Origin: a virus
Virus record (IMG/VR): IMGVR_UViG_3300027906_000138
Location: 1-25,734 of that record
Length of the DNA: 25,734 nt
Strand: one strand, 5' to 3'
Position numbers and translations under genes: made by a program. Positions 1,736-11,232 of this stretch are shown here, one piece after another. Position 1 is the stretch's first letter, and the number at the start of each line of letters is the position of its first letter. The notes below the pieces were generated by a model. It saw nothing but the letters and a program-made list of their open reading frames with translations, was not told the origin of the DNA and did no database searches.

Positions 1736-1875
1736 TGGGTATTTATCAACAACCAACAGACAAGTTTGAATGTTTTATGTGCAAGAAATTGCAAACTGAT
1801 TCATGCCCTATCTGTAATAAACAGACCAATGAATCTTGGAAAATAGCTTTAAGTATGGGAAAGGAAAAGAAATGA
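1705..1875 (+). CDS. Small zinc-ribbon protein (up to 56 aa)
   Basis: The frame encodes two CxxC pairs (CFMC and, 9 residues later, CPIC), the signature of a four-cysteine zinc ribbon, followed by a basic C terminus. The start is uncertain: ATG at 1705 has no clear ribosome binding site, while GTG at 1735 overlaps the stop of the upstream micro-ORF (TAGTG) and has GAAGAAG upstream, giving a 46-aa protein. The 3' end overlaps the next gene by ATGA. Zinc-ribbon microproteins in phages often bind nucleic acid or RNA polymerase, but no specific role can be assigned. Confidence 0.6.
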   Translation: MLSFYVEEEVVGIYQQPTDKFECFMCKKLQTDSCPICNKQTNESWKIALSMGKEKK

Positions 1876-2018
1876 AAAAAGAAAAACTGTTTAATTGGAA
1901 AGTTAAATTGCAGTTGATCTTTGTGGTATTAATGTTGCTGTTACTTAATGCAATAGCACCAAAGCCATTTGCAAAGCATGAGCAAGTTGAATGTATTAAT
2001 ATTGAGCAAAGACAATGA
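1872..2018 (+). CDS. Small membrane-anchored protein (48 aa)
   Basis: ATG at 1872 is chosen because it overlaps the preceding stop (ATGA) and has GGGAAAGGAAAAG directly upstream; an in-frame ATG at 1836 would extend the protein into the previous gene. A basic N terminus (KKEKLFNWKVK) precedes one hydrophobic helix (about residues 11-27, Leu-rich), then a short hydrophilic tail containing one Cys. Topology is probably N-in with the tail periplasmic, or an uncleaved signal anchor. It overlaps the DNA methyltransferase start by 4 nt. Function unknown. Confidence 0.65.
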   Translation: MKKEKLFNWKVKLQLIFVVLMLLLLNAIAPKPFAKHEQVECINIEQRQ

Positions 2019-2947
2019 ATTATCTTTCGATATGTAGTGGTATAGACGCCGTTACAGTTGCATGGAAACCTATGGGTTGGAAAGCATTAGGCGTTTCAGA
2101 AATAGACCCTTTTAGAAAAGCAGTATTAGATTATCATTATCCAGATATAAAAAATTTTGGAGATTTTACGGAGATAAAAAAAGATGACTTTAGAGAACCA
2201 ATTGACCTTCTTGTCGGAGGAACGCCCTGTGTCAGTTTCTCAATGGCAGGACTTAGAGAAGGAATTACAGAAGATAGAGGAAACCTCGCACTTGAGTTTA
2301 TTAAACTGGCTCAAAGACTTAGGCCGAAGTGGTTACTTTGGGAAAATGTTGCAGGAGTCTTGTCAAGTAATCGAGGACGGGACCTTGGTTCCTTTCTCGG
2401 AGCATTGGCTCAATGCGGGTATGGGTTCGCCTACAGGGTTTTGGACACTTCACTTATCAGAACACAACGATTTCCCAGAGGCATACCACAAAGACGACGG
2501 CGTATCTTCGTTGTCGGACATCATACAGACTGGAGAAAACCTATCAAAGTATTATTTAAAAGGGAATCTTTGTCGAAGAATGTTGCGCCTGGCAGAGGAA
2601 AACGAATACAAGTTTCCGAAACAGATAGAGGAGCAATTAATACAACTTTCGCAGTTAGATCAAGTTTTGGAGGAGGATTCTTACCAGAACGAGCTTATAC
2701 TTTAATGGCTTCTGAATTGCAATATGTTAGTTATACAGATTTTTTAGGCACACATTTAAGAAAAATGACTCCTGTAGAATATGAGAGATTACAGGGCTTT
2801 CCTGATAATTATACGCAAGTTCCTTATAAAGGTAAGCCAAAAGAAGAATGTTCAGATTTAAAAAGATACGAGGCCTGTGGTAGATCAATGTCTATAAATG
2901 TTATGGAATGGTTAGGTAAAAGAATAGAGGAAGTAGAAAATGAATAA
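2015..2947 (+). CDS. C5-cytosine DNA methyltransferase with variant motif X (candidate carboxymethyltransferase)
   Basis: A 310-aa member of the phage C5-cytosine methyltransferase family. Motif I is YLSICSGIDA (3-12), motif IV GGTPCVSFS (68-76) carries catalytic Cys72, motif VI is ENV (110-112), motif VIII QRRRR (159-163), and the C-terminal block YERLQGFPDNY is present. The enzyme flips cytosine in DNA and attacks C6 through Cys72. The odd point is motif X. Relatives have GNS, here it is GRS (289-291), so Arg290 replaces a near-invariant Asn next to the cofactor pocket. As I recall, an N374K change at the corresponding place in M.MpeI confers use of carboxy-SAM. The gene overlaps a CmoA-like gene by 8 nt. 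Methylation or carboxymethylation of cytosine is possible; the recognition site is unknown. Confidence 0.93.
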   Translation: MNYLSICSGIDAVTVAWKPMGWKALGVSEIDPFRKAVLDYHYPDIKNFGDFTEIKKDDFREPIDLLVGGTPCVSFSMAGLREGITEDRGNLALEFIKLAQRLRPKWLLWENVAGVLSSNRGRDLGSFLGALAQCGYGFAYRVLDTSLIRTQRFPRGIPQRRRRIFVVGHHTDWRKPIKVLFKRESLSKNVAPGRGKRIQVSETDRGAINTTFAVRSSFGGGFLPERAYTLMASELQYVSYTDFLGTHLRKMTPVEYERLQGFPDNYTQVPYKGKPKEECSDLKRYEACGRSMSINVMEWLGKRIEEVENE

Positions 2948-3587
2948 AGCTGATACATTTGATTTTGCAAAAGTAGGTGAGTTTGATAAGCATATTAACT
3001 TATCAATACCAAATTATACTTCTTTATGTAATATATTCTTAAATATAACAAAAGAATTTATGTCTGCTGAAACAAAAGTAGTTGATTTAGGGTGTTCGAC
3101 AGGTAAATTTTTATCTTCATTAGATAAAATAGAGGATTGTGAATATATAGGTATAGACACCTTAGATTTTGCTGACAGAAAACAGGATTTTAAATTTTTA
3201 CAAAAAGACGCTGAAACAATAAAAGACATTGATAGTTGTTCAGTTATTATAAGTATGTTCTTTCTCCAGTTCTTAGGTGAACCTAAAAGAAAAAGAATGT
3301 TAAAGTTAATAAAAGAAAAAGTTGAAAAAGGTTGCGTTCTTCTTATATCAGAAAAAGTTTTATTAGAAGATACAAGAATACAGACTGTTTTACATAAAAT
3401 GCACTTACAAGAAAAAAGAAAAGGTTTTAGCGATAAAGAAATACTTGATAAAGATTTAAGATTAGGAGTTACCATGTATTGCAAAACTCAGAATGAGTTA
3501 CTAGAAGAATTAAAAGAAATAGGAAATCCAACACAAGTCTGGCAAAGTTACGGATTTGTTGGTTATGTTGTAAAGAAAAGGAGATAA
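2940..3587 (+). CDS. CmoA-like SAM enzyme (carboxy-SAM synthase family)
   Basis: A 215-aa class I SAM-binding fold with motif I VVDLGCSTG (47-55). Similarity to E. coli CmoA as I recall it extends through the chain: SIPNY versus SVPGY, LQFL in both, ISEKVLLED versus LSEKFSFED, a matching HKMH/NMHH segment, GFSDKEI versus GYSELEI, and a similar W...GF C terminus. CmoA makes carboxy-S-adenosyl-L-methionine from SAM and prephenate, normally for CmoB tRNA modification; no CmoB is seen here. A caveat: CmoA Arg199, which contacts the carboxylate, aligns with Asp172, although Arg174 lies two residues on. It is translationally coupled to the C5 methyltransferase, suggesting cofactor supply. A plain methyltransferase is the alternative. 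Confidence 0.75.
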   Translation: MNKADTFDFAKVGEFDKHINLSIPNYTSLCNIFLNITKEFMSAETKVVDLGCSTGKFLSSLDKIEDCEYIGIDTLDFADRKQDFKFLQKDAETIKDIDSCSVIISMFFLQFLGEPKRKRMLKLIKEKVEKGCVLLISEKVLLEDTRIQTVLHKMHLQEKRKGFSDKEILDKDLRLGVTMYCKTQNELLEELKEIGNPTQVWQSYGFVGYVVKKRR

Positions 3588-4785: not shown

Positions 4786-6198
4786 TTAAACAACACCTTT
4801 AATATCTCTAACTAAAGGTTGTTTCCAATCTCTTGCGTATGAACCTGACCGAGAAGCTATAGCATCACCTGCCATTAATAAAACTAAAGCATCGGCAACA
4901 TCTGGTGAGCGACCAATTCTTTTTTTGATCTGATCTTTTGACTCGACTTGTATTTTACCACCAGCAGTAAATTTATATTTAACACTAATTAAATCAGCAA
5001 TCATGTATTCATTAGAGGGTAATTTACACATTTTACTCTCTAAAAAAGATCTAAACTTAAACCATAACTCACTTCGCAAATTCATATATGTTTCTTTCTG
5101 ACTAGGGCTTTCTGCCACATTGATTCCTACAGCGTTTAATCTTCCAATAGCATTAAGACTATCTAAAACACCATAACCCATGCCTATAACATCTATATAG
5201 ACTTCTACAGGCCTATTTTCTGGCTCTGTAGTATCAAATTCAGCTTGAACTCTGCCGCTTAACTCCATTAAATCTAAACGCTTCCATGTTTTTATATCTG
5301 TTATAATGTTTCCTTGTTTTTTAACAAGAACTGAACTATCTGCACCATGTCTTGCTACATCTAACGCCCATATTGTATCAGATATACCATGGTCATTAGG
5401 TATTTCTCTTTGTATAGCTGAGTCAACTAACTCTAAAGGTATAATAGTATCATCTGTTTCTTCTGCAAATTCGCCTAATACTCTAACTTTATATGCTGAA
5501 CTTTCTTCGCCATAACGCATAGCCATTTCTTCAACAAATTCATCTGATACTCTATCACTATCAAAAGCAGATATATGAAAAGTTTTCCATGCACCTTTTA
5601 ATTTATGGTGCGTATCATAAAATAGACCAGAATTTCTTGTTGGGTTTCCTAATAAAATTGTGTGAACATTATGTCCTGACATAGAACCGGCCGCTGATTC
5701 AAACACTTCTTCAGGGATTCCTGATGCTTCATCACAAAGCAAGATAACTTTACCTTGACTATGAACACCAGCTAACGCTTCAGGTTGTTCTTTTCTTGAG
5801 GTTCTAGCAGATATAAATGCTTCAGCACTTCTTGATTTTAAAACTATTCTATCACTTTTTACATCAACTAAGTCTTGTAATGGTTGTGGCATTTCACCAA
5901 TCCATTTCTTTAGTTCGGCAAACAAAGCATCAAACAACTGACCACTTGTTGGAGCAGTTACAATAAGTTTACAATCAAGGTGTGTAAGTAAAGTATGTAT
6001 TAATATCCAACTTGCAACAGAAGATTTACCAACACCGTGAGCAGAACGAACAGATACTTTTCTTTCGCCAGAAACAATAGCTTCCATTAGTTCAGACTGC
6101 CATTTATCTGGTGAAATACCTAAAACATTTTCACAAAAAAGAGTTGGCTCTTTCTTATAAGTTTTAATAAAATCTACAAATGGATTAGGTTGATTCAT
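4786..6198 (-). CDS. terL: Terminase large subunit
   Basis: A 470-aa packaging motor. The N-terminal ATPase has Walker A SAHGVGKSS (52-60, Lys58), Walker B VILLCDE (151-157) and coupling motif GNPT (184-187). The C-terminal RNase H-like nuclease has ALDVARHG (Asp280), a YIDVIGMGYG segment and a terminal DVADALVLL motif supplying the other metal-binding acids. It docks at the portal, drives ATP-dependent DNA packaging and cuts genome ends. Its start overlaps the 2OG oxygenase by 14 nt, and it is the last gene of the long minus-strand replication operon. Length and motif order are normal for the family. No small terminase subunit is recognisable by sequence nearby. Confidence 0.96.
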   Translation of the reverse strand: MNQPNPFVDFIKTYKKEPTLFCENVLGISPDKWQSELMEAIVSGERKVSVRSAHGVGKSSVASWILIHTLLTHLDCKLIVTAPTSGQLFDALFAELKKWIGEMPQPLQDLVDVKSDRIVLKSRSAEAFISARTSRKEQPEALAGVHSQGKVILLCDEASGIPEEVFESAAGSMSGHNVHTILLGNPTRNSGLFYDTHHKLKGAWKTFHISAFDSDRVSDEFVEEMAMRYGEESSAYKVRVLGEFAEETDDTIIPLELVDSAIQREIPNDHGISDTIWALDVARHGADSSVLVKKQGNIITDIKTWKRLDLMELSGRVQAEFDTTEPENRPVEVYIDVIGMGYGVLDSLNAIGRLNAVGINVAESPSQKETYMNLRSELWFKFRSFLESKMCKLPSNEYMIADLISVKYKFTAGGKIQVESKDQIKKRIGRSPDVADALVLLMAGDAIASRSGSYARDWKQPLVRDIKGVV

Positions 6199-6733
6199 TT
6201 TTATCCTCTAAACCAGCCCATAATACTAGAGAATTTCTAATTCCAAAATAAATAGGTAACGCTTTATGAAGCATTAATGAAGGAAAAACAATCATAGTTC
6301 CTGGTTTTAATTTAGGTCTTGGAAAATCATGGTTTCTAAATTGCAATCCGCCACCAATATAATCTTTAGGATTAGTAAGTTCAATAGTTGCTGATATTAC
6401 TCTATTTGGTGTTTCTGGCCATGCGTTAGAATCTATATGATAATTATAGTAATTTAAAAATTTATAATGAGTAAATTGAATTGGCTCAACATTATTTAAT
6501 TCTTGGTTATAGAAATTTTTACTAACATCAAACAGCATATCTACAACTTTATTTAATATCTTATCTAAATCTTTGTTTTCGTCTTTATGAAACCATGAAA
6601 CTTTATTTCTTCTTGAAAAAACTTTTGCAGACATAGTTGTAGCTTTTTCTAAATTTTTCATACCTTCTTTAGTTATAAAATCTATTTCATTTTTATCTAA
6701 AATATCTTGAAGTATGTAATAATCAGGTCGCAT
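6185..6733 (-). CDS. 2-oxoglutarate/Fe(II)-dependent oxygenase
   Basis: A 182-aa double-stranded beta-helix dioxygenase of the prolyl-4-hydroxylase/PKHD type common in marine phages. The Fe(II) triad is His99-x-Asp101 (in YHIDSN) and His156 (in LMLHKALPI), with Arg166 (in IRNSLVLW) placed to bind the 2-oxoglutarate carboxylate; GGGLQFRN forms the typical central turn. The substrate cannot be told from sequence. Phage relatives are thought to hydroxylate proteins or amino acids, and nothing here resembles TET/JBP DNA oxygenases. The start touches the stop of the upstream zinc-ribbon gene (TAAATG), and the 3' end overlaps terL by 14 nt, suggesting co-expression with packaging genes. Confidence 0.9.
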   Translation of the reverse strand: MRPDYYILQDILDKNEIDFITKEGMKNLEKATTMSAKVFSRRNKVSWFHKDENKDLDKILNKVVDMLFDVSKNFYNQELNNVEPIQFTHYKFLNYYNYHIDSNAWPETPNRVISATIELTNPKDYIGGGLQFRNHDFPRPKLKPGTMIVFPSLMLHKALPIYFGIRNSLVLWAGLEDKNEST

Positions 6734-10569: not shown

Positions 10570-10642
10570 GAAAAGCTCCTATAAAAAACGCTACAACTAA
10601 AAGACTTGTCATTATTAAAAATAAAAAATTTTCAAAACTCAT
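10562..10642 (-). CDS. Membrane microprotein (26 aa)
   Basis: A 26-aa frame, almost entirely one hydrophobic helix (FLFLIM...LLVVAFFIGAFLG), starts by ATGA overlap with the adenine methyltransferase stop and ends 8 nt inside the primase gene. It may be a genuine single-pass peptide, or exist mainly to couple translation across to the TTG-started primase gene, whose AGGAG site lies within it. Length and overlap suggest it is real; function unknown. Confidence 0.5.
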   Translation of the reverse strand: MSFENFLFLIMTSLLVVAFFIGAFLG

Positions 10643-11232
10643 GGCTCTATCCAATCAAATGTTGTATCATCACTTTTCCAACTTTTACCTCGCCAAACAA
10701 TCCATGCGTAAGCTGTTGTTCCACTACGACCTTTTGGTATAGCTTCACCATTTCTCCATAAAGTTTGTCTTTTTGCAAAAACATATATGTTGCTTGGCTT
10801 ATGTTCTTTATACCAATGAAATCTTTTCTGACCTTCTAAAAAATTTAATCTTAAAAACAAAGCTAACTTACCACCTGATTGAGCAGTAAGTTCATATCCT
10901 AGTTTCATAAATTCAGTAGCATATTTAAAAGGTGGGTTAGTTACTATATTTCTAGGCATATTTTCTTGATATGTGCATTGTAAAAAATCAGCAATAGCAT
11001 TTAAGTTTTTGTAACCATGATCTACAATATCAGTTGATAAAACAGAATAACCAGCGTCTAATAAAACATCACTTATATCACCTCTACCACAAGCTGGTTC
11101 CCAAACTTGACCATGAAATTTCTCTCTATCAAGTAATTGTTTTACGCATTTTCTTGGTGTTGGGTATAAATCATATTCTGCTCTATTACCTGTTTTTAAA
11201 GTTGTATTAGATTTGGATTGTAATTTCGGCAT
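10639..11232 (-). CDS. DNA N6-adenine methyltransferase
   Basis: A 197-aa SAM-dependent enzyme with motif I WEPACGRGDIS (44-54) and catalytic NPPF (99-102), the amino-methyltransferase signature; a DLYPTP segment (21-26) precedes motif I. The order motif I then NPPF and the short length match phage-type adenine methyltransferases. It would methylate exocyclic amines in phage DNA to evade restriction or mark replication. A recognition site cannot be inferred. ATG at 11232 has GAAGGA upstream. It is the first substantial gene after the 230-nt gap containing a long inverted repeat, and its stop overlaps the TM microprotein (ATGA). Confidence 0.88.
   Translation of the reverse strand: MPKLQSKSNTTLKTGNRAEYDLYPTPRKCVKQLLDREKFHGQVWEPACGRGDISDVLLDAGYSVLSTDIVDHGYKNLNAIADFLQCTYQENMPRNIVTNPPFKYATEFMKLGYELTAQSGGKLALFLRLNFLEGQKRFHWYKEHKPSNIYVFAKRQTLWRNGEAIPKGRSGTTAYAWIVWRGKSWKSDDTTFDWIEP

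Follow-up and report, generated by a model that had tools for sequence, protein, structure and literature searches.

A predicted CmoA-CmoX gene pair for cytosine carboxymethylation in a marine phage, from a methyltransferase branch that appears to have gained its motif X arginine independently

Why a marine phage should carry, in overlapping reading frames, a C5-cytosine DNA methyltransferase with arginine in the place of the motif X asparagine and a gene resembling that for the carboxy-SAM synthase CmoA is the question raised by the 25,734-base IMG/VR virus record analysed here (the window). In the answer that we consider highly probable, the two genes are a phage CmoA-CmoX system with the predicted product 5-carboxymethylcytosine (5cxmC), which would shield the phage DNA, and the methyltransferase belongs to a branch with the catalytic sequence GGTPC that would have acquired its arginine independently of the CmoX of Synechococcus phage S-B43 (SpCmoX).

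A sequence-only reading of the locus had proposed that the phage supplies carboxy-SAM locally, that a natural arginine variant reads it, and that no confirmed natural example was known. The last point no longer holds and the first two have gained support, since Yang et al. (Nat Commun, Dec 2025; PMC12783734) proved just such a pair in S-B43, and so the idea was right in kind if no longer without precedent. There SpCmoA makes carboxy-SAM (Cx-SAM) and SpCmoX, which uses Cx-SAM only and not SAM, makes 5cxmC in GC motifs; the DNA becomes resistant to HhaI. Arg350 of SpCmoX replaces Asn304 of HhaI and in the crystal touches the Cx-SAM carboxylate, and the R350N change abolishes activity. A ligase of the same phage, CmoY, amidates the carboxymethyl group, adding glycine (PMC12783734). 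The main text of that paper gives a CmoX family of 5,615 members for which SPPC and Arg350 were required, and the paper cites the engineered M.MpeI N374K, which uses carboxy-SAM. Among the papers searched, none of later date deals with CmoX or 5cxmC.

In the window both frames lie on the + strand, the methyltransferase gene (cmoX) at 2015..2947 (310 aa) and the cmoA-like gene at 2940..3587 (215 aa), and the 8-nt overlap first pointed out between them (ATGAATAA) is borne out by the sequence, as is the arginine. A small upstream ORF (1836..2018, + strand) ends in a TGA that overlaps the cmoX ATG, as ATGA. Judged by its matches in Pfam (PF00145, E 1.1e-46), NCBIfam (TIGR00675, above cut-off) and PHROGs, the cmoX product is a bona fide C5-methyltransferase. 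The signatures of catalysis are intact, with Cys72 (codon 2228..2230, + strand, an invariant alignment column) in GGTPC, E110-N111-V112, and QRRRR at 159-163; the family motifs I, IV (PC), VI (ENV) and VIII (QxRxR) are thus all present, and motif X, which reads ACGRSMSINVMEW, has Arg for Asn. The residue, Arg290, is encoded by AGA at 2882..2884 (+ strand), turning GNS to GRS, and is invariant among 15 aligned enzymes of the cmoA-linked Arg clade, which rules it out as a sequencing quirk. Profile alignment with hhalign pairs it with Arg350 of SpCmoX, and this, together with clade and partner statistics, underlies the prediction of a CmoX-like carboxymethyltransferase. Structure models were built from locus-only alignments; the AlphaFold model of this enzyme is poor (pLDDT 59.9, and <50 at 285-290), and so the placement of Arg290 in the pocket is not given by it.

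By homology the route to the modified base would begin with CmoA carboxylating SAM with prephenate to yield carboxy-SAM. The methyltransferase would flip out the target cytosine, Cys72 would attack C6 to form the C6 adduct, and Arg290, standing where motif X normally has Asn, would hold the carboxylate of carboxy-SAM. Transfer of the carboxymethyl group to C5 and beta-elimination would then leave 5cxmC, which may shield the phage DNA from restriction.

CmoA of the host type acts alongside CmoB in modifying tRNA, and so the pair could also be read as an ordinary 5mC methyltransferase, the fold and motifs being those of a normal C5-MTase and the arginine neutral, beside a CmoA-like gene that serves the host tRNA wobble modification. 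The partners kept by related enzymes bear directly on this. Methyltransferase-centred scans of IMG/VR gave 108 loci in 68 clusters, of which 37 Arg and 22 Asn clusters (59 non-redundant) were assessable. A cmoA gene is nearby in 35 of the 37 Arg clusters and in 0 of the 22 with Asn (Fisher p = 3e-14, a value which overstates independence because clusters within one clade share ancestry), and the Arg methyltransferase and cmoA genes usually overlap or abut. The sequence-only reading was prepared to be wrong if GRS variants commonly occurred with no CmoA partner, and they do so in just 2 of the 37. Against the CmoA-CmoX reading stand phages L018 and L041, which have the Arg methyltransferase with no separate cmoA and a CmoA-like domain only inside a large ORF; in their contigs (L346, L347) the reading frames that contain this domain are 1230 and 1507 codons long. 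Approached from the other side, with a narrow CmoA alignment (a broad one had no conserved stretches), 57 of 70 cmoA-centred loci hold a GGTPC Arg methyltransferase, 12 a partial methyltransferase ORF only and 1 none, with an Asn methyltransferase in 0 of the 70. A cmoY gene adjoins the Arg methyltransferase in 11 of 38 clusters, the orders of cmoX (X), cmoA (A) and cmoY (Y) being XA in 26, YXA in 8, XY in 1, YAX in 1 and X in 2. At one locus (L017) the window methyltransferase clade is paired with a different CmoA, of Mcat8 type in the tree, and so the pairing has been made at least twice. An ordinary 5mC enzyme does not account for so nearly perfect a linkage of Arg with cmoA and its lack in the Asn relatives, nor for the company of cmoY; a CmoB match was looked for and not found, in a search run without a positive control; and SpCmoX with its arginine refuses SAM (PMC12783734). 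We therefore regard that explanation as very unlikely, and prefer the CmoA-CmoX pair.

The preferred reading requires that the cmoA-like product make carboxy-SAM. Its best NCBIfam matches are two CmoA equivalogs (TIGR00740 at E 1.1e-23, the other at 3e-16), both under their cut-offs, and so it is to be seen as a divergent CmoA. Its best matches among PDB sequences are E. coli and Haemophilus CmoA (E about 4e-14), and its model (pLDDT 83.6) has CmoA proteins for all its top PDB structural matches; in sequence and fold it is thus CmoA-like, if below the equivalog thresholds. That divergence (28-29% identity to SpCmoA and to E. coli-type CmoA) would suit another scheme, in which the protein makes some other SAM derivative, or the methyltransferase uses another acidic SAM analogue, and the base is not 5cxmC. 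So would the lack of a counterpart to Arg199, the residue with which E. coli CmoA binds the carboxylate (PMC3663124): the window protein has Asp in that column and so lacks the Arg of that salt bridge. However the active SpCmoA has Glu there, and the absence of Arg199 is consequently no argument against activity of the window CmoA. In a quick tree, with the window represented by the identical CmoA of a close relative (L006, see below), the window clade is sister to the SpCmoA group (SH-aLRT 92), nearer to it than to E. coli CmoA, and SpCmoA makes Cx-SAM with a k_cat of 2.33 per s (PMC12783734). A neighbouring CmoY, moreover, needs a carboxyl to ligate. A product other than carboxy-SAM or 5cxmC is on these grounds also very unlikely.

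If the chemistry is that of S-B43, the enzyme does not seem to have come by descent from an arginine-bearing ancestor in common with SpCmoX. The window methyltransferase has the Arg that defines the published CmoX family, but it and its Arg relatives have GGTPC and not SPPC. Searched against the PDB, the clade profile found SpCmoX (8YF3) at E 1.3e-5, near the end of the 60 PDB sequences listed, and M.HhaI at 1.9e-24. In a tree of 62 proteins, some with long end branches, the 19 GGTPC-Arg enzymes group as a single clade (98/93) within a well supported GGTPC branch (97/98) that also holds 22 GNS enzymes, and SpCmoX lies in another branch, where its relatives have Asn (CL131), Leu (Melnitz-2) or Met (FPSV-S2) at the motif X position. 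Forcing the Arg enzymes into one clade is rejected by the AU test (dlnL 207.5, p-AU 4.5e-104), and since the motif X column, not deliberately excluded from the alignment, would favour joining them, two origins of the arginine, and with them a convergent branch containing the window enzyme, are well supported by these sequence comparisons. A genome-collection scan for the window methyltransferase clade gave two truncated fragments and one distant match only.

Other arrangements occur elsewhere among phages. In the Staphylococcus phages vB-SscS-F1 and SPbeta-like (L087:5995-8513, L091:5950-7649) cmoA stands beside a third methyltransferase lineage, with GSPC and with Gly at motif X, possibly a third solution to carboxy-SAM binding; vB-SscS-F1 has a CmoY-like gene in addition. 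In the Yersinia and Erwinia phages L092 and L093 (about 250-265 kb), cmoA and a cmoY-like gene are present without an immediately adjoining C5-MTase. The SPPC-type Arg enzyme gp43 of Erwinia phage Yoloswag (L351:2450-4558) has an apparent intein, inserted directly at the catalytic cysteine of its SPPC motif. In the window itself an ORF at 10639-11232 with an NPPF motif resembles adenine or N4-cytosine DNA methylases and has no Pfam match.

Nested within cmoX is a +1-frame ORF of roughly 170 codons (2184..2705, + strand). An HMM picks it up in every one of the loci tallied (119 Arg, 42 Asn), and its length exceeds that expected under synonymous shuffling, with p < 0.01 for most of the genes tested. 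Its relatives match PHROG 16143, labelled DNA methyltransferase, and it has the appearance of an overlapping gene under conservation.

The final state of the base is addressed by the close relative L006 (IMGVR 3300020411_001603), whose sequence is by blastn 96.3% identical to the window upstream of the cassette and 98.5% identical downstream of it. In L006 an 825-nt cmoY lies exactly between the small ORF and cmoX, with the 11-nt sequence AAAGACAATGA at both its ends; blastn and the junction sequences place a single copy in the window, at 2008..2018 (+ strand). The small-ORF stop, which in L006 overlaps the cmoY start, overlaps that of cmoX in the window, where the ATGA coupling is thus restored, and the two records form a clean CmoY presence/absence polymorphism. 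The small ORF as a remnant of CmoY was considered and ruled out, as it also precedes cmoY in L006. Absence of cmoY extends to the 23.6-kb L007 contig as well as the window record, both of which may be fragments. Loss of cmoY is likelier than gain because the YXA order is found in 8 clusters, gain being the less likely direction. With cmoY missing from the window and L007, the cassette might be thought a relic left with a catalytically dead methyltransferase. The catalytic motifs are nevertheless all intact, and between the window and L006 just 3 residues differ in the methyltransferase and 0 in CmoA, the few changes in cmoA being all at third codon positions; of the alternatives weighed this is the least likely. 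A working CmoA-CmoX pair lacking CmoY would be predicted to leave free 5cxmC as the final base of the window phage, and by analogy relatives with CmoY probably have the carboxyl amidated. The role in blocking restriction first suggested for 5cxmC can be kept as a predicted one, with the amendment that in relatives the group may also be a handle for CmoY. On balance we favour the wider view that DNA carboxymethylation evolved at least twice, via the same Asn-to-Arg change in distant phage methyltransferase branches, and that among phages of a single marine species the final base is free 5cxmC in some (window, L007) and amidated in others (L006), the change being a precise deletion of cmoY between the 11-nt repeats. 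The gene for a 2OG-Fe(II) oxygenase adjoins the terminase in the window (6185-6733), where it might conceivably take part in further modification of the base. L006 does not have it at this position but has cmoY elsewhere, a reciprocal pattern that may be due to chance.

A modification of DNA that was first described in December 2025 would thus extend to an independent enzyme branch, one which a search requiring SPPC would miss. The findings suggest that in nature one motif X substitution may be enough to make a C5-MTase use carboxy-SAM in place of SAM. Naturally matched enzymes with which to test such a change are available in the Asn and Arg sister groups, and a comparison of the window phage with L006 would single out what the last amidation step does to restriction and host range.

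Compared with the CmoA-CmoX-CmoY system of S-B43 (CmoX structure 8YF3), the window has in common a CmoA adjoining a C5-MTase whose motif X Asn is replaced by Arg, and a CmoY-type ligase occurs in its relatives, so that by analogy the chemistry is very probably the same. It differs in the GGTPC branch of its methyltransferase (SPPC in SpCmoX), in the separate origin of the arginine, in gene order (XA or YXA here, AYX in S-B43) and in lacking CmoY. With E. coli CmoA (4GEK, 4IWN), both top structural matches of its model, the window CmoA shares fold and SAM-site motifs, whereas identity is about 28%, Arg199 is not kept, and the partner is a DNA methyltransferase in place of CmoB. M.MpeI N374K, as cited in PMC12783734, likewise has a basic residue at the motif X Asn and gains use of carboxy-SAM by it, but is a laboratory mutant with Lys and a CG preference, in contrast to a natural enzyme with Arg. 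The nearest Asn relatives, GNS methyltransferases of phrog_116 type such as those of Roseobacter phage CRP-821 and Pseudanabaena phage Pan4, are of the same GGTPC branch and presumably ordinary 5mC enzymes; they keep Asn at motif X with no cmoA or cmoY nearby, whereas the window enzyme has its Arg beside cmoA.
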